Positions 5,020-63,554 of a DNA stretch of 64,000 nucleotides are shown here, in pieces (the stretch's first letter is position 1; every line of letters starts with the position of its first letter). Source of the stretch: Nitzschia sp. pyKryTriq1 (taxonomy: Eukaryota; Bacillariophyta; Bacillariophyceae; Bacillariales; Bacillariaceae); the NCBI GenBank assembly GCA_956465555.1, contig OY101124.1, forward strand, positions 1,302,001 through 1,366,000, written 5' to 3'. The position numbers and the translations under genes were made by a program. The notes beneath the pieces are model-generated. The model did not search any database. It worked only from the letters and a program-made list of their open reading frames with translations, and was not told the origin of the DNA.

Positions 5020-6618
5020 TCAAACATCACCATCCCCACCATCATTGCTACGAGACCGCCGGTCCGGTGGTGACTGTTCGTCGACCTGTCTGTAATGCGC
5101 TGCGAGGGCTCGCAAATAGTCAGCCGAGGGAGCGGTGGTCCCGCCAGTCCTATCGCTCGTCATCGTGTGTTGCTGTTGCTGCGTTTGGAGTAGTAGAAGG
5201 GAAAGCAACGCTTGGTTCGTCAGTGCTGCTGGTAGCTCAGCGGTTTGTCCCCTCCCCTGCGAGGAGGAGGACAAACGAGAACTACCCTCCGACCTCTGTG
5301 AATCGCCACCTGCAGGTCGATGTCCAGATAGACTTTCTCGGGAAGCCGGCAGAAGAAGTGAACGCAACATGTTTGTGGCATCAGCAGCCCTGTTCAATGA
5401 GGAAGGAGCACTTTGGCCGCCTTGGGCCAAGGATGCATCACCCATACCTGTACCACCAAGCAAAGAAGAGCTTGAGGGGAGTCCCAGTAAAAGCCTTTCC
5501 ATTGGAGATAAGTTTGGCTGCGCGTATGCTAGTGGCTGCAAGAGGAGGCTCCTTGTTGGGTCGCCAAGATCCGCTTCTCTCTGAGAACGCTGGTTGTGCT
5601 GAAGTAGTAAAGCAATCCTAGAAAGCTCATCATGAGCAAGAGAATCACCAATGCCACCATACGCAGCGGGACCAAGCCCAACCAGTGGCGAAGGTCGAGT
5701 TGCCAACGGAGGAGACGATGATCCTGCTCGTCTAGTACCAGCAAGACCAGCAGCGACTGCTCGCCTCAATTGCTCCTCTTGGCCCGCAACAATCTCTTGA
5801 GCCAGTTGCTGTTGGCGGAACAAAGACAAAGCGGAAAGTTGAGAAGCTTGAGGGTCACCAGCGTGCCGTGAAAGTAGTGCCGATAGTGCCGGGTTCCCAC
5901 CGGCAGAAGGAAGCAGATGGTGCTGAGAAGGAGGCCGGCTATCCACGGAGGCAATCTGCGGCGATTGTTCTTGTCGGACTCCTCCTCTCGCAGGCAGCAT
6001 GGCACTGTGTGCCCCACTCTGACTCATGTAACTCGTTGCATACTCCTGGCCTTTGGAATCCATGGTGGGTCGCAACACTTTTGCTGGCGAGGCTCCACCT
6101 TCCGAGGATTCTTCTCCCTCGGAAGAACTTCCGCCGCCAGTCTTCTTGCTGCTCTTGTAGTGGCCAACAAACCTTAATGCCTGCTTCGTCTTCTCTAACA
6201 CAGTATCTTTTTCTACAACTACCCATCGCTTGGCTTGCTTCTTCTTAGTTTTTGTTTCTCCCTGGTCGCCATCGGGATTCGTAACGTGTTCCCCTTCGAC
6301 TTGCTTAATGAACCGAGCACCGTTTGCTTTAACACTCCGGATCGCTTTTCGTGCGATCTTTTCCTTTTCTTTGCGTTTCTTTGTTGCCAAATAATCAGGC
6401 TGATACGAATGGACGATGTTTCTATACCGCTTATTGCCGGGGTGTTCGTTCGGACCAATCCCTCTGCCCATCATAACGTCAAACTCCCCTGGGACATCTA
6501 TGAACGTTCCGGCGACAGGACTCTCTGTGTCGCCAGATGTCTTCCTATTTCCTTGAGCGACCGGGCTTGTCATGATGTGCGGGGAACTGTCGCTTGGGTA
6601 GGCAGGGTCCATTAACAT
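5020..6618 (-). CDS. DUF6824-domain protein with long low-complexity C-terminus
   Basis: Single exon, 532 residues. Residues about 45-170 match the DUF6824 domain that is expanded in diatoms: FDVMMGRGIGPNEHPGNKRY, then a basic helical segment (ATKKRKEKEKIARKAIRSVK), GARFIKQVEG and a WVVVEKDTVLEKTKQALR block. The remainder is Ser/Leu/Gln-rich and looks disordered, with runs such as SLLLLQTQQQQH. The domain's biochemical role is unknown; the basic region and Gln-rich tail would suit a nuclear DNA-binding or transcriptional role, but that is inference. Two in-frame ATGs (6618 and 6612) are possible starts. The plus-strand frames over this gene are antisense shadows. Confidence 0.82.
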   Translation of the reverse strand: MLMDPAYPSDSSPHIMTSPVAQGNRKTSGDTESPVAGTFIDVPGEFDVMMGRGIGPNEHPGNKRYRNIVHSYQPDYLATKKRKEKEKIARKAIRSVKANGARFIKQVEGEHVTNPDGDQGETKTKKKQAKRWVVVEKDTVLEKTKQALRFVGHYKSSKKTGGGSSSEGEESSEGGASPAKVLRPTMDSKGQEYATSYMSQSGAHSAMLPARGGVRQEQSPQIASVDSRPPSQHHLLPSAGGNPALSALLSRHAGDPQASQLSALSLFRQQQLAQEIVAGQEEQLRRAVAAGLAGTRRAGSSSPPLATRPSPLVGLGPAAYGGIGDSLAHDELSRIALLLQHNQRSQREADLGDPTRSLLLQPLAYAQPNLSPMERLLLGLPSSSSLLGGTGMGDASLAQGGQSAPSSLNRAADATNMLRSLLLPASRESLSGHRPAGGDSQRSEGSSRLSSSSQGRGQTAELPAALTNQALLSLLLLQTQQQQHTMTSDRTGGTTAPSADYLRALAAHYRQVDEQSPPDRRSRSNDGGDGDV

Positions 6619-21703: not shown

Positions 21704-24906
<3,203 letters not shown>

Positions 24907-27959: not shown

Positions 27960-29395
<1,436 letters not shown>

Positions 29396-54827: not shown

Positions 54828-57431
54828 CTACTCGTCCAGATCAAACTGTTTCAGTCTCCGTCTCAACTCGATGATTGGTTTGCGAGCGGCAATCGAGTCG
54901 CTCATGCCTTTGTTGTGGTAATGGAGCGACGGATAGTATCTGTGTTGTCGGAGTAGGTCGGTCCTTGTCACCATTCCTACCAACTGATTCGTCCCATCCT
55001 TCACCACGGGTATACAACCCACGTCGTTCGCCAACAAGATGGCTTCCACTTCGGCCATGGTCCGACTGGCTTCCACCGTCTTGACGTGCTGTTTCATCCA
55101 CGCCTTCACGGTAGAACCAGCTCTTCGTCTTTCTTCCGCCTTCTTCCGAGCATCCTCGCTCATTGCTTGCTGCTGATTTTCCTTGTGCTGCTTAGATTTG
55201 GACGACGAATCGCCATTCTGTTTCTCCTTTTCAGCTTGCCGTAATCGCTTCTGTTCCTTGTTCCACATTCGTTGCTTTGCGGCAGCTACTTCCTTGTAAC
55301 TTACCAAGCCTATCACCTCATTCTTCTCGTCAACGACAGGCAACGCTCGGACGTCGTAGCGAGTAAACAAGTCCTCTACTTGCTGTTCTGTCATGTCCGG
55401 CCTCACACTCAGCACTGGGGACGTCATAAATTCACCCACCGTGGCTTGCTCTTGCAAGCTGTTTTCTACGAGCTCGTCTACCAAACTGGACATGATCGCA
55501 GTCGCATCCGATTCATCGTTGAGTCGAACAGTTGCCGAGGCAGCCTTGGGATGACCACCACCACCAAAGCGTTCCTCTAGAAGCTTGCCCAGTTTGATTG
55601 ACTTCATGTTCACGCCGGCCTTGACTCGACCAATGATGATCAGAGTACAGGGCTTCTTTTCGGGTGTGGTCAGCTCATTCCGAGATTGCTCCGCAAAATC
55701 GACAAATTCCTTAAAATCAATGTAGCCATTGCCGTCCGTATCCATGGCATCCATCAGGTTCGAGACTGAATCTTTGGATGCAATAATTCCCGAGGATGCC
55801 AAAGCAGTAGTGAGTTCACGCTTATCTAGAAAGCCAGATCCGTCCAAATCTTTGCGATCAAAGGAAGCCCGTAGACGTTGTTGCATGAGGTCGTCTCCAC
55901 TCAATGCTTCAGTTTCTAGAATACTCCCATCGGATTCTTGTGCCTGACCCTGCTGCTGCTGTTGTTGCTGCTGCTGCTGCACGATGGGTGACGGAGCTTC
56001 ACCATCCTTGAGAAGATGCGTCTTAATACGGTCACCTGGTTCCTTGCTCTTCTTTTTCCCCTGTCCTCCCGACTTGGGTTCGTACACCAATCCCAGCAAA
56101 TACACATCCGAAGAACTTAATTCCAGGGCATCTTGTGTCACTGCTGCAAGGCCATTGATGAATCCATCCGCAGTCAAAAGGACGGTTGAGATAGTGACGC
56201 CATGAACAACCGTCGAATTAGTATTGATCAATGCCTGGGTCAGCACACCCTGTTGTTCTTGACTTAGTGACGATTTGGCGTGTTCCGCAATGGCCGCTTG
56301 ACTTGCACCCTGCTCCATGACCCACGCCAAAGCCCTTGCGTCCCGTGGCGTCGTCGAGTCAAAACACAAAGAGCCTGTATCTCCATGGATACCCAGAGCC
56401 AAAAGGGTAGCTTCGGCTGCAGTCAAACCTTCATCCAGCTCGGCTTCTTCTAATCGTTCGACAATCAAGGTCGACACCGAGCCCACCTTGTCCAAAACGT
56501 AATCGGAAGCGTCAATGTCTGAATCCGAGTCCAAGTGATGATCTACGACAGTGATTCGATTCGCATAGTCGAGCAGGTGCTCCGCAGGCCCAATTCGTTC
56601 TCGCCGTTGGGCATCTACGAGACCGAGCCTATTCAGACCGCTGAGGTCTTCTGGTAGACTTTTGAGACTACGGATAGGAAAGAGATGTTTGTGCAGGGCC
56701 AGGAATTTCTGAACCGAGGGGTGTGCACCTCGTGGCAGCACCACAAATGTAGGAAGATGGGAACTGCTGTCAAACTGTGCCTTGTCTACCCCTTCACGTT
56801 CATTCTGACAGCTCCATAGCTTTGCCAGTCCGACTGCGCTGGCTAACGAATCAAAATCGGCTGTGCAGTGGGTCAATACAACATTGAACCCCGACGTGGG
56901 CACAACGGTTGCCGGTTGATCTTGGATCGCTGGATTTTTCTTTTTTTGCTGCTGTGACTGAACGTCTTCCAAGGCGTCTTCTTCCTCCTCCTCTTCTATC
57001 TCGACAGCTGCAGCTTCTTGTGGTGGTCGTGGTGGTTGGATGGGCCGAGCTATCACCGCACCCTCACTATTAGTTGTAAGCTCCAGCCCATTGTCTTCCA
57101 GAAACCTTGCTGAATACGTTCGCAAGGGAACCTCCTTCCTCCTAGGCGGCGAGGGGGGGTTCTGATCACTGCTGCTGGTGGTGCTACTGCTCTGCTCACT
57201 ACTTTCGCTTCCTGTCAACGATCCATCGGCAACCTGCGAAGAAGGGCTCGGCTGCGATGGTCGCTTGGCAGCATGGAGAGCTATTACAGAAGAAGAAGCT
57301 TGCTGGGTAGTGGAATAGAAGAAGCACGGCTTATTTTGCAGGAGAGCATGCGAATATTCATGGCAGCCAAACCCCAACAAAACAACAATGCCGAGCACGG
57401 GTCTCGGGAGGTAGGATACGCTTCCAACCAT
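54828..57431 (-). CDS. DHH phosphoesterase with inserted EF-hands and C-terminal CBS pair
   Basis: Single exon, 867 residues, ATG at 57431. A hydrophobic N-terminus (VLGIVVLLGFGCHEYSHALL) suggests a signal peptide. The DHH domain has THCTADFDSLASA (about 184-196) and VVDHHLDSD (about 295-303), metal-binding motifs of DHH phosphoesterases. A poly-Gln run (55953-55981) is followed by two canonical EF-hand loops, DLDGSGFLDKRE and DTDGNGYIDFKE (about 527-575), then the DHHA1 substrate-binding part (RFGGGGHPKAAS, about 618-629) and two CBS motifs (about 667-714 and 777-827) separated by a charged helix. In bacteria DHH-CBS modules occur in CCA-adding-type and pyrophosphatase-type proteins. The substrate here is unknown; Ca2+ and nucleotide control are inferences from the EF and CBS parts. 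Confidence 0.9.
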   Translation of the reverse strand: MVGSVSYLPRPVLGIVVLLGFGCHEYSHALLQNKPCFFYSTTQQASSSVIALHAAKRPSQPSPSSQVADGSLTGSESSEQSSSTTSSSDQNPPSPPRRKEVPLRTYSARFLEDNGLELTTNSEGAVIARPIQPPRPPQEAAAVEIEEEEEEDALEDVQSQQQKKKNPAIQDQPATVVPTSGFNVVLTHCTADFDSLASAVGLAKLWSCQNEREGVDKAQFDSSSHLPTFVVLPRGAHPSVQKFLALHKHLFPIRSLKSLPEDLSGLNRLGLVDAQRRERIGPAEHLLDYANRITVVDHHLDSDSDIDASDYVLDKVGSVSTLIVERLEEAELDEGLTAAEATLLALGIHGDTGSLCFDSTTPRDARALAWVMEQGASQAAIAEHAKSSLSQEQQGVLTQALINTNSTVVHGVTISTVLLTADGFINGLAAVTQDALELSSSDVYLLGLVYEPKSGGQGKKKSKEPGDRIKTHLLKDGEAPSPIVQQQQQQQQQQGQAQESDGSILETEALSGDDLMQQRLRASFDRKDLDGSGFLDKRELTTALASSGIIASKDSVSNLMDAMDTDGNGYIDFKEFVDFAEQSRNELTTPEKKPCTLIIIGRVKAGVNMKSIKLGKLLEERFGGGGHPKAASATVRLNDESDATAIMSSLVDELVENSLQEQATVGEFMTSPVLSVRPDMTEQQVEDLFTRYDVRALPVVDEKNEVIGLVSYKEVAAAKQRMWNKEQKRLRQAEKEKQNGDSSSKSKQHKENQQQAMSEDARKKAEERRRAGSTVKAWMKQHVKTVEASRTMAEVEAILLANDVGCIPVVKDGTNQLVGMVTRTDLLRQHRYYPSLHYHNKGMSDSIAARKPIIELRRRLKQFDLDE

Positions 57432-58102
57432 TTCGAGTCAGAGCGATATATGATGCTTTTCTTTCTTTCTCTCTCTCTTCCGATGGATTTTATGTTTGAA
57501 TACGAGTAGTGTGAGTGTGAGGAAGGATGCGGGGAACAGAACTTGTTGGCTTGCTACTACCGGTAGAGTTTTGTTGTTGATCGATACAAGTTAGGCTAGA
57601 GATTAGAGTACAAGTGTAGCTCCACGATGCCTTCCGATACATGCGCGATAGACGAGGCAATGTCCGTTGTCTATCTCTCGATCCATCTTCCAGCTGCGGT
57701 TTGCGGTTTGTTCCTCGAGCGCGTGTCAGATGCTCGGCACCGACCGACGATGGCTTCTTGCTTCGCCATTGTGGCCGTCGAAATTTTGGCCCAAAAGCAA
57801 GTCCACCGCATGCCATGACCATCGAAGGACAGACTCACTTATGTTTGTCTCTCTATTACGCGCACGTCGACACGCACGTCAGAGGCTTCTTCGAAAGAAG
57901 CACAGGCACCTTTTATGGAAAGATGTCTTGCCTATTGCCAAACCGACGTCACAAAATCCGACGATGCATCGGACCACGACATCCGACGACCAAAACACAT
58001 CATTGCGCTTTGCTTGCTTCGCCTCTCTCTCTCCTCTGTTGCGACAGACGATGAACGGATATGCCACAAAATCACATCGCATCCATCCTTGAAGAGGTAA
58101 AA
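57432..58102. promoter_or_regulatory. Divergent promoter region (DHH-CBS gene and PsbP-like gene)
   Basis: About 670 bases with no supported gene. GACGTCA (TGACGTC on the minus strand) lies at 57945-57951, about 152 bases before the PsbP-like start. Short CT-rich tracts are near 57468-57480 and 58021-58035. Confidence 0.5.
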
Positions 58103-59188
58103 ATGAAATACTTGGCGTCAACAATGTCGTTCCTTTGGGTGTCGACCTTTTGGATACTGGTGCAGCAGAGCCATCTCACCGAAGGATTCCAAAAACCATC
58201 AGTCGCACCACCATCAGCTCAATGGCGGTCATTATTTTCCGTCAACCTTCCGACGAAAACTGCAATATCTGCGGGGCGTCACGATTCTGATCAAAATGAT
58301 GATGCTTCCAATAGAAGGTCTTTCCTAGCCACAGCAGGATCAGCCTTGATTGGTTTCGGCATCTTGTCTCCAGCGCAGGAAGCATGGGCGGGAATTGATG
58401 TCTCTGGGTTGCAAACCGAAGGCGGTGGCGGCAATCCCAACCTTGCCAGTCAATTGAAAGCCTACGATGGATCGGGAATTACAAGAGTACGAGAGGTCAA
58501 ATCAATGCAAGAGACCACATCTTCGCCCGTTGCTTCCAAAAAGCCTGCTGCCCCCGTCGAAGCTGTGGACGATCGAGCACCCATTGCTACCTGGGCCTAC
58601 CGAGCCAATCCTGGATTCAATCCTAGTTTGACCCCCGCGGGGCCCTTGCGAAATATGTATCGCTTTAGTGATATGGTGGTGGCTCCTTCAGGAACGAAAC
58701 GACGAGCCATTGGTGTACAATTTGAATTCCCTTCCGATTGGCTTCAACTCGATCGAAGCATTGGGGGAATCCAATATGTCGATCAGCGCAACGGAGATAA
58801 GCTCTACGTCTTCCGGGCTCCACTCCCGGCCGATACATCACTATCAACCATATCCAAGGCGACTATTGGGGATTTTATTTTTGATACCCAGGGAAGTCTC
58901 GCCAAAAGTGGTCAAACCGTGGAAGACTACAAGGTGACCAGCGCCCAAATTCTGTCCGAATGTCCCAACCAAATGTGTGCCACGCGACGACGATTCAAAG
59001 TGAAATATGCCACTGTTACGGGGAATGGGTTACGGGTTGAGCGCCGAGCTCTTGTCGATGCCTACCAAGTGGAAAATGATATCTACATGCTCATGACTTC
59101 GTCGAATGCAGTCAAATTCGAAAAACAGGATAGTCTGGAACGAGAGACCGTGGAGAAGATTGTATCATCCTTTCAAGTGGACGCTTAA
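58103..59188 (+). CDS. PsbP-domain-like thylakoid lumen protein
   Basis: Single exon. An in-frame ATG also exists at 58061, but the one at 58103 starts the signal peptide directly (MKYLASTMSFLWVSTFWILV), giving 361 residues. A transit region is followed by a twin-Arg lumen signal (NRRSFLATAGSALIGFG, about 70-86, then AQEAWA). The C-terminal 165 residues match PsbP-like folds: YRFSDMVVAPSG, IGVQFEFPSDWLQLDRSIGG, YVFRAPLPAD, RRRFKVKYATVTGNG and a final SLERETVEKIVSSFQV. PsbP-domain proteins assist photosystem assembly or the oxygen-evolving complex. Which of the several PsbP-domain subgroups it belongs to cannot be told from here. A TGACGTC-type box is about 150 bases upstream. Confidence 0.87.
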   Translation: MKYLASTMSFLWVSTFWILVQQSHLTEGFQKPSVAPPSAQWRSLFSVNLPTKTAISAGRHDSDQNDDASNRRSFLATAGSALIGFGILSPAQEAWAGIDVSGLQTEGGGGNPNLASQLKAYDGSGITRVREVKSMQETTSSPVASKKPAAPVEAVDDRAPIATWAYRANPGFNPSLTPAGPLRNMYRFSDMVVAPSGTKRRAIGVQFEFPSDWLQLDRSIGGIQYVDQRNGDKLYVFRAPLPADTSLSTISKATIGDFIFDTQGSLAKSGQTVEDYKVTSAQILSECPNQMCATRRRFKVKYATVTGNGLRVERRALVDAYQVENDIYMLMTSSNAVKFEKQDSLERETVEKIVSSFQVDA

Positions 59189-59520
59189 AAAAGTAGTCTC
59201 GTCTAGTCTAGTCATGCAAGGGTAAGAATCGCTATTTTCATTTCAAGCTAAAATAGAATATCAAGAATTGTTTCTGTACACTGTACACTGTACTACTACT
59301 ACTAGAGCTACAGCAGCAACATGGTGTTCGAAGCAGCATCACTTGCCATCACGCCTCCACTACAGCATACGACTCGTCATCGTACCAGATGATATTGGAA
59401 CGGGTTTCGTCGCATCATATTGTATTGGAAAGCGGTCATTCCAATTGTTGCCTGCTTCCACACTCAAGAGCTGCGTAGAACTATGAGTAGCTACCGGTTG
59501 TATCAGCGTCTAACCATCTC
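59189..59520. other. Convergent intergenic region; expected 3' UTR of the selenoprotein candidate
   Basis: If the leftward gene decodes UGA as selenocysteine, a SECIS element should be in this 332-base stretch (minus strand). I see short stems (for example 59232-59256, and ATTGGAA/TTCCAAT arms at about 59396-59446) but no convincing ATGA...AA...GA core by eye. Confidence 0.4.
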
Positions 59521-60288
59521 TTACGCTTCGTCGTCAGCAGCCACCTCTCGAAATATCTCCAACAGAGTTTCGGATGATTGCGCTCCTGAGAATCCATGGG
59601 GTCGTTTCGATGGATCACTTCCACGAACAACGAAAAACGGCACTCCACGAATCCCATACTTGGATCTTCCAAAACGAATTTCGGCTTCCACTTGTGACTT
59701 CCCTTGATCCTGCGTCAAAAAAGTTCTCAAAGATTCCACGTCTTCTTCCGCCGTTGCAATACCCAATTCTCGCTGCGCCAGTTGCACCAAGGTTTCCACT
59801 TGCGAAATATTTTGTCCCTCTTCGTATTCCGCCCGAAAGAGGACTTGATTGACAGTATCCGTATCCGTCGACATTCCGTGACGATCTCGACAGTACTGAA
59901 TCAATTGATGGGCCTTCCATGTATTCGGCCAAACCTTCCAGTTATCAAACCTTGCGCCGTCTTTTCGTCCTTCCGCCTTGAGGTGATGCGTCCAGCCACT
60001 TCCACCCCATCTTCTTCGACAGTAGGACTCCACCGATTCTCCCTCTGGTTTCGTCCCTGGATCAATCACAAAGGGCTTCCATTCGACGACGACGGTGACG
60101 TCCCGATTGTTATGTTCCTTATCATTCTCCTTACCGAATTCTTGCAGGGCCTGGTGGAGTCGCTGTTGACCGACATAGCACCAGGGTCACGCTAGATCGG
60201 AATATACCGTCACATGGATGGCAGGAGCAGCAGGAGCAGCAGCAGCACTTGTACTGCCAGTATTACTAGCAGGAGCGGAGGCAGACAT
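59521..60288 (-). CDS. DsbA/FrnE-like thioredoxin-fold oxidoreductase, probable selenoprotein
   Basis: Reading from the ATG at 60288 gives 255 residues with one in-frame TGA at codon 34 (60189-60187); the frame is open on both sides to the TAA at 59521. The codons around it read VTVYSDLA-TGA-PWCYVGQQR. FrnE/DsbA-like proteins have VYSDxxCPWCYVG there, so TGA stands exactly in place of the first active-site Cys: a U-P-W-C motif. The rest fits the family: EWKPFVIDPGTKPEGES, NTWKAHQLIQYC, LFRAEYEEGQNIS and the cis-Pro loop GIRGVPFFVV (about 210-219), then GAQSSETLLEIF. It would be a thiol-disulfide oxidoreductase or isomerase. A 3' splice-like tract just upstream of the ATG leaves open an extra 5' exon. 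A chance nonsense change is the alternative. Confidence 0.85.
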
Positions 60289-60898: not shown

Positions 60899-63554
60899 AT
60901 GATGACGAACATGAACAAGGTCATCACTCGCAGCCACAACAACAATAGCACTTTCGCCAAAGGCTTGGCGGTGCTTCTAGTGATTGGCTTCTTTATGTTT
61001 AGCTTGGATTCGGCGGAGATCGCTGATGGTGCTGCTGCTAGTACCACCACCGCCACCACCACCACCACCAATCACACAATGAATGGCGTCGTTCAAGTCA
61101 AAGAGCAGCCTACCAATCATCATACTGCTACTACGACTACGACGAGTCAAGATCCAAATGCAAGCCCATCATCCCCAGCACCACCATCATTTCATCGCCA
61201 TACATATCAACCAAGAGGGCAACCACTGACCGACGACGAACGACAAGCGCTGATCGAGAAGTGGGGATCTTGGACTTTGGTGGATCCGAAACGAGACTCG
61301 CGCCCCAAAGAGGACTTTTATGCTAGATATCCTAATCGAGATGTACCCCGCAATGAATTTCCTTCGAATGCCTGGCAAATGGACAAGGCATATCTCGATG
61401 AATTCTTCCCCCAAGCCTTGGCATTGGTTCGGCGTGCCCAAGAAGCGATTTTGGCGGAATATGGAAAAGAACAAGGTGACAACTCTTCCTCATCAGCAGA
61501 GGAGGACTACTCATCTTCATCTTTCGAGACAAGATCGTCCATGTTTCAAACGGAGATTATGGACACATGGGAAGGCGAGACGATAAACAGTCCGAGACCA
61601 TCGGCCGGTCAGGGAGGTTTCACCAATCGAAAAAGCTGGGATGGCTTCATTCGGCGAATTCTACATTCCATCATGACGGAAGATTCATTCGTTTTTGCCA
61701 TGGGGGGACACTCGGCAGCAGCAGGACATGGGTACGTAGAAGAAGAAGAAGAAGACGAAAAGAAAACATATAATGTCATGGGGAAATATTTATAGGCCGC
61801 TTTGCTCATTCATCGTTCTGTGCTCCCTTCTTCTTGTTGTTTTCAGAAATCACTTCGTACAATCATACACAATACAAGTCCAATGGATTTTGGAAGCCGT
61901 CTTTGCGCGACTGGGCGTCCGACACCAAGCTCGAAATTTTGGCATGGGGGGATTGGGCACCATTCACAATGGATTGGGGGCCGGTAGCATTTATGGACCC
62001 GACGTGGATATCCTCATGTGGGATTCGGGCATGACGGAAAAAGACAAAGCGGGTCAAGACTTGTTGCACCGCCAATACATACTGGGAGGTCAAAAGGTTC
62101 CCGTCCTTTGGTCGTTGGCGTTGAGTCCCATTATGGAATTGCATCTCAACGCGGGCGCCGATGTAGGATACCCGGGTGAGGGGGCTCAGGGCGTCCCGAA
62201 AGCGAATACCGTGGAAGAACTCAATGCTCTACCCTGGGCGGTTCAATATATGAAGTGCGATGACGATCTCAAGCAAAGTTGTAAAGGTCACGAATACAAT
62301 GGAACTTGTTGGTTGGAACGCGACGATTATACACCAACAACAAAGCAGGGTAGCTACCCTGGAGGACGTGCCGGCTGGCATCCTGGGAATCGCCATCATC
62401 AATTGCGAGGGCGGGTTTTGGCGTTTACCATCTTAAGTGCTCTTCATGATGCTTTGACACTATGGAGAAATGCGGATGGGTACGAGTTACCAGACGAAGC
62501 CTGGCATGTGACGGAACACTACGAGACAATCCGAGCAAAAACTGCAGCTGATACTGGAGCTTGTCATGGGCAATTTTCACAATCTCATTTGGAGTTTGCG
62601 TGTAAATATCCAGTCAAGGTAAGAGCAATCTTTACAATACGGTTTACCGGGATGTTCGTCTCTAACGCCACCAAACATGTTGATACAACTTGAATGATGG
62701 TGCAGGCACGAACAGCGTTTACACCTAGAGCCTTTCCCTCTTGGACCAGTATTGTCAACACGTTACCACCCGAGCAACAATCGATATTGAACTCACACGA
62801 GAAAAACGCGTACGAACCACCAGATATTTTCAATCCGTATCTTCATCCTCCGAAAGGGTCTGTTGACGTCTTGAACATTGTCGAAGGAGGCGTCCCTTTT
62901 GAATCAGTTCGAGTACCAGACTACACCGGCTTCTATAAAATGCCATCCTTCCCGACTACACCGACCCTACCCATCGGCAAAGGTATTATTTTAAACACCC
63001 AATCTGGAGACCCGTTTTGTGATGGATCGGCCGATTCCTTCTGTTCGCGCGGAGGAAGTTCTGACTGTTTGCTGTCTGGCCACAATGATGGTCGGAACGG
63101 GATTGCCTTTGATGGCTACAGCGGCTGGGTCGTCATGAATCTTCCAGACCTCAAACGTGGTTACATTGCTATCAAATATGAGTCATGGCACAAGGCCGAT
63201 GGCTTGTCGAAGACGGTGGGATGGAACTCCATCAACAATGAGACAGTTCCATCTAGCGACGAAATTGGACGGGAAGTTTTCTCGAATTCGACTCGCAAAT
63301 TGAAGAAGAACAAACCTGCACCGTTTTGCGATAAGTTCGAATTCGAATACGCTGTTGATGGGAATGTAACGACTCTGAACCTCGAAGAATGGCGGGCACG
63401 CTCTTACCAAGTGCAGCGGGTCGTCGAAGTCCTAACCCTGTTGGAAGATCCAAATTATACCGGTGGTGAAGAACGTGAAGTAGAAATTGCGATTCGGATC
63501 AAGGGATGCGCGAGGCGAAAACAGTTCCAGCTGACACATGTCTACTGGTCATAA
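60899..63554 (+). CDS. SGNH/GDSL-hydrolase-like type II membrane or secreted protein
   Basis: Exons 60899-61731, 61847-62618, 62706-63554 (phases 2 and 0); 817 residues. An N-terminal membrane segment (about 21-38, GLAVLLVIGFFMFSLDSA) is followed by a Thr-rich stalk. The first splice joins FAMGGHSAAAGHG to NHFVQSY, giving the block-I-like nucleophile motif (Gly-His-Ser with a following Gly) seen in a family of large diatom/algal secreted proteins. Later blocks: NFGMGGLGTIHN, DVDILMWDSGMTE, VPVLWSLALSP, PGGRAGWHPGNRHHQLRGR and GRNGIAFDGYSGWVVMNLPD. The C-terminal part is beta-rich and Cys-containing. It may act on cell-wall glycans (esterase type), but no substrate is shown. Splice sites GTACGT and GTAAGA. 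Confidence 0.78.

Follow-up and report, generated by a model that had tools for sequence, protein, structure and literature searches.

A FrnE-type DsbA gene with a probable selenocysteine codon at the first active-site position

On the minus strand of the window, by which is meant the whole 64,000-nucleotide stretch of DNA analysed here, a single-exon gene at 59521..60288 encodes what its sequence identifies as a FrnE-type protein of the DsbA thiol oxidoreductase family, full length at 255 residues when an in-frame TGA at codon 34 (60187..60189) is read through. We infer that this UGA is recoded, and its reading as selenocysteine (Sec), which would complete a U-P-W-C active site, is the best explanation and probably the correct one. 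The Sec reading is favoured by the position of the TGA, by the role of TGA as a normal stop in the rest of the window, by bacterial relatives that combine a TGA at the same codon with SelB in the genome, and by published Sec-containing DsbA and FrnE proteins; the failure to find a SECIS element is the main evidence against it. A preliminary description of this DNA had proposed a U-x-x-C selenoprotein. That proposal gains from position, from the TGA-bearing relatives with SelB and from precedent, and falls short in that the SECIS it requires was not found.

Reading frame, family and genetic code

The frame begins with an ATG at 60288-60286 and ends with a TAA at 59523-59521, and the TGA at codon 34 is the only stop within its 255 codons. 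There are 33 codons before the TGA (the ATG counted) and 221 from the TGA up to the TAA, and the surrounding peptide reads VYSDLA-TGA-PWCYVG; on re-reading of the minus-strand frame, the TGA position, both codon counts and the flanking peptide proved to be exactly those of the preliminary description. The probability of 221 open codons in a random frame of the same composition is ~5e-4, and this improbability, together with a match to Pfam DSBA (PF01323) over residues 26-244 of the read-through product (77.4 bits against a cut-off of 25.6, E 1.7e-21), indicates that the frame 3' of the TGA is coding.

Among sequences of known structure the read-through product matches Deinococcus radiodurans FrnE over residues 19-252 (E 5.1e-22) and SCO1869 of S. 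coelicolor (E 7.7e-11). Only three distinct PDB sequences are found at E <=0.001, two of which are forms of one FrnE, and in all three the column of the TGA is the first Cys of CPWC, which bears out the earlier placement of the TGA at that Cys. A search of NCBIfam with the protein gave no match. The AlphaFold2 model of the read-through protein has a pLDDT of 92.4, with a strand at residues 23-30 and helix 1 from residue 35, and its best five PDB folds are all D. radiodurans FrnE entries (TM 0.71-0.73, normalised to query length). The catalytic residues of the thioredoxin-like DsbA fold sit at a helix start, and residue 34 is so placed, since helix 1 of the model begins at residue 35.

Motif residues of the FrnE subfamily are present at S30, D31, P35, W36, C37, V216 and P217, position 34 being the TGA. 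The TGC of codon 37 (60178..60180, minus strand) would by analogy supply the resolving Cys of U-P-W-C. The codon for Pro217, the conserved proline of G-V-P, lies at 59638..59640 (minus strand); this residue is presumably the cis-Pro of the thioredoxin fold. The window protein has no C-terminal CXXXXC motif and no Cys beyond residue 133. FrnE of D. maricopensis and of S. roseofulvus are likewise described as being without CXXXXC (PMC8945050), so the motif is not obligatory for the subfamily.

A nuclear code in which TGA stands for Cys, or for some other residue, would account for a single in-frame TGA at a Cys position, but the behaviour of TGA elsewhere in the window makes such a code scarcely credible, and the remaining three Cys codons of the FrnE gene itself are TGC or TGT. 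A homologue of CDC5L aligns up to its residue 788 of 801 with residues 30-795 of the 802 in PDB 5mqf chain L, which we take to be human CDC5L, and is terminated where CDC5L ends by a TGA at 24904-24906, 13 residues past the last aligned residue. Of 13 frames of at least 200 codons that end in TGA, 12 remain open for no more than 45 codons past it, and the thirteenth is accounted for by an 87-nt GT-AG intron at 62619-62705. Elsewhere in the window TGA is an ordinary stop.

That intron belongs to a plus-strand gene at 61740-63554, seen as frames of 317 and 286 codons parted by an in-frame TGA at 62691-62693. As a recoded stop this TGA was rejected; it lies inside the intron, and removal of the intron leaves the frame open.

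The presence of an in-frame TGA within a short intron of a neighbouring gene raises the same explanation for codon 34, namely that its TGA is intronic, or that translation begins downstream, and that it is therefore never translated. This is very improbable: conserved codons abut the TGA on both sides (SDLA-TGA-PWCYVG), and no GT-AG intron can drop the TGA and yet keep the active site, because the first AG 3' of it comes only after PWCYVG, where QQ is encoded. A late start fares no better, as the next ATG is codon 139 and its use would lose the active site.

The codon-34 column in bacterial relatives

A genome scan of bacteria and archaea yielded 48 relatives, every one with CPWC. One of the six search peptides of this first scan was CPWCYVGQ, itself present in 48/48, and for that reason the uniformity is uninformative on Sec. 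When the window protein was aligned with 19 of the 48, 11 columns were invariant across the 20 rows; eight of these (C34 to Q41) lie within CPWCYVGQ and the others are D31, G176 and P217.

Relatives were also sought by an unseeded whole-genome protein search of 4 genomes of known loci, 60 genomes from one phylum and 58 from another, with matches in 8/60 and 14/58 genomes of the two phyla. Its 28 loci were reduced to 22 by leaving out L065, in which the column is uncovered, and L052-L056, which were already among the 48. The exact peptide CPWCYVGQ occurs in none of the 22. Their active sites read CPWC in 16, CPFC in two, CAWC in one and TGA-PWC in three, the second Cys, that of codon 37, being present in all 22. 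Whether homologues carry Cys or Sec at the TGA column, a question posed in the preliminary description, can now be answered for these bacterial relatives: 19 have Cys and three (L064, L074 and L076) have TGA.

In the three TGA relatives the frames stay open for 188-191 codons beyond the TGA, and the three genomes encode full-length SelB (TIGR00475; 366, 327 and 321 bits against a cut-off of 242). SelB scored above the cut-off in 14 of the 21 genomes tested, and the seven below it all have Cys; TGA thus occurs in 3/14 genomes with SelB and 0/7 without, the expected direction in numbers too few for significance alone. Of the TGA relatives, two share a phylum and look like close kin. Hairpins 3' of the bacterial TGAs, compared with simple shuffles, do not stand out clearly (z -0.96, -2.54 and -0.98), and the hairpin directly 3' of the window TGA is not unusual either (z -0.45). 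As far as sequence can tell, the Sec form at codon 34 also appears to exist in distant bacterial relatives. The unseeded search raised our confidence in the Sec reading slightly, from an already high level.

L064 (1540), L074 (1558) and L076 (1549) are themselves probable selenoproteins of bacteria, and annotation may show them as truncated. They resemble the window gene in being of FrnE type, in their in-frame U-P-W-C-Y-V-G and in the SelB of their genomes, and differ from it in being bacterial, in sharing only ~25-28% identity with it, and in that their Sec would need a bacterial SECIS. Among viral contigs a protein search found no relatives, and three matches to the DNA pattern for TGA-P-W-C-Y were all dismissed as chance.

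The main rival to the Sec reading is a Cys-type FrnE gene, or allele, whose true codon is TGC or TGT, with the TGA explained by a base error or by a nonsense mutation of very recent date. A single substitution suffices for this, Cys is the common form (19/22 unseeded relatives), and no SECIS was found. Against it, the gene is otherwise intact, and the change must have landed at the very residue where Sec is expected. Single-base changes could create a stop at 115 places in the gene, 35 of them giving TGA and one giving TGA at codon 34, and an accidental stop would therefore strike the catalytic residue about once in 115 times, mutation bias being ignored. The same codon is TGA in 3/22 bacterial relatives, and replacement of the upstream Cys by Sec has been described before (PMC2874816). 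This rival is possible but unlikely, and less likely than Sec.

Search for a SECIS element

The expected site of the 3' UTR and its SECIS is a convergent intergenic region of 332 bp (59189..59520, minus strand), bounded by the end of the convergent neighbour gene at 59188. Neither in this region nor elsewhere within 1 kb of the stop was an acceptable SECIS found by Rfam or by scripts, the latter being uncalibrated on real algal SECIS, and the preliminary description had likewise seen no convincing element by eye. With E allowed up to 5, Rfam gave five matches between 57500 and 61000, none of them to a SECIS family. Between 59060 and 59560, with E allowed up to 10, it gave three snoRNA matches below gathering and no SECIS; at gathering score it matched nothing across the whole window. 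A tRNA search of the 64-kb window found no tRNA.

The published SECIS rule, given as NTGA-(10-13)-AA/CC-(15-39)-GA (PMC2375036), was scripted with a demand for at least 6 helix II pairs and returned a single site in 1.5 kb, a CC-type site at 58075 that was rejected, as it lies 1446 nt past the stop and antisense to the neighbouring gene. A loosened form of the rule gave seven rows, and the best of these, at 58202 and 58294, were set aside at more than 1.2 kb downstream. Stem scoring over the 1.5 kb after the stop produced six rows (five sites) scoring at least 5, where the rate over the window would predict ~1.3; the top score of 7.5 was again the site at 58075, and another site, at 59264, needs a loop of 29-36 nt. 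Neither was accepted. The first 1 kb past the stop holds no strict SECIS site, the general frequency being 79 per 128 kb, and a further scripted scan found 0 in the 1.5 kb after the stop, with 67 per 128 kb. Sixteen rows of stems between (T/G)GA and GA in ~700 nt included none with the SECIS layout. Twenty loosened primary matches in ~525 nt included none with a clean helix II adjoining the quartet; one of them, at 59115, was discarded with its six pairs split over two short stems.

Less usual arrangements fared similarly. The six rows listed for GGA quartets (58612, 58538, 59359 and 58827) do not have a standard core. Within the coding region two sites have at least 7 helix II pairs (60069 and 60125), the better of them with a 3x3 internal loop, and neither was retained. 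Nine rows obtained from 197 in-silico splice variants were put down to multiple testing on poor splice sites. From 59342 down to ~59270 on the minus strand there is a GTGA, followed after 10 nt by AA and then by an (AGT)n 3' arm, resembling part of a form II SECIS; this look-alike was rejected, being without the 3' GA and in a segment that does not fold that way.

There is a small chance that the gene is a genuine Sec-FrnE gene whose signal breaks the eukaryotic SECIS rules, for example through a SECIS formed only once the 3' UTR is spliced, a quartet without the 3' GA such as the stretch at 59342, or a SECIS in the coding region; if true, a class of algal selenoproteins escapes the SECIS searches now in use.

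Other genes of the window were also noted. The convergent neighbour (58055-59188, plus strand) has a plastid-targeting-like N-terminus and a twin-arginine-like segment and is PsbP-like by eye; its protein has no Pfam or NCBIfam match. A minus-strand frame of 869 codons at 54828-57437 combines DHH, paired EF-hands and two CBS domains with a DHHA1 match below its cut-off, an unusual-looking arrangement in that the EF-hands lie between DHH and DHHA1. Genes for a DUF6824 protein and an LCIB-type carbonic anhydrase lie, both on the minus strand, at 5020-6618 and 27960-29015. Both would fit a stramenopile alga, plausibly a diatom.

Related selenoproteins and proposed mechanism

DsbA proteins with Sec in place of the upstream Cys have been described in Ciona intestinalis, C. 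savignyi and Branchiostoma floridae, in a report that also refers to earlier Sec-DsbA from bacteria and Micromonas (PMC2874816). These chordate proteins are like the window protein in being DsbA-like with Sec for the upstream Cys of CXXC; they differ in that a SECIS was found in their genes (COVE 17.89-22.40; PMC2874816), whereas none was found for the window gene. Sec-FrnE is described from Mamiellophyceae and M. viride (PMC6627142). By description, the terms on which the comparison is made, these share with the window protein the family name, an algal origin and the character of a Sec-containing oxidoreductase, and differ in coming from green algae, the window being that of a probable stramenopile. 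A survey of algae counts DSBA as one of their most widely distributed selenoproteins, and diatoms are credited with 20-44 selenoprotein genes (PMC7539508); an older survey gave Thalassiosira pseudonana 16 selenoproteins, one of them thioredoxin-like or of thioredoxin fold (PMC2375036). Novelty of Sec-FrnE in diatoms cannot be claimed.

D. radiodurans FrnE (DR_0659; PDB 5cnw, 5cp1 and others) has the same fold and a CPWC site. It has Cys and a C-terminal CXXXXC (PMC8945050), where the window protein has the TGA and is without CXXXXC. FrnE is presented in the same source as a predicted cytoplasmic thiol oxidoreductase tied to oxidative and cadmium stress, and a different regeneration is suggested there for members without CXXXXC (PMC8945050); regeneration of the window protein, which is without the motif, should accordingly differ from that of D. 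radiodurans FrnE. By eye no signal peptide is seen in the window protein, and its location is probably cytosolic.

In the mechanism proposed, the UGA of codon 34 would be decoded as Sec, with the U-P-W-C site at the start of helix 1. By analogy the chemistry at this site would be a disulfide exchange in which the selenolate attacks disulfides and Cys37 resolves the mixed selenenylsulfide. The full-length protein would need selenium, a 3' UTR that contains a SECIS, and the tRNA machinery for Sec; when selenium is short translation would halt after 33 residues.

The probable Sec-FrnE gene is a further case in a known selenoprotein family and not a new kind. A known pattern is confirmed, and new insight could come only from the failure to find a canonical SECIS. 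If the Sec reading is real, the gene is one that standard annotation would miss or truncate, and its product would be one more selenium-dependent redox enzyme in an alga.
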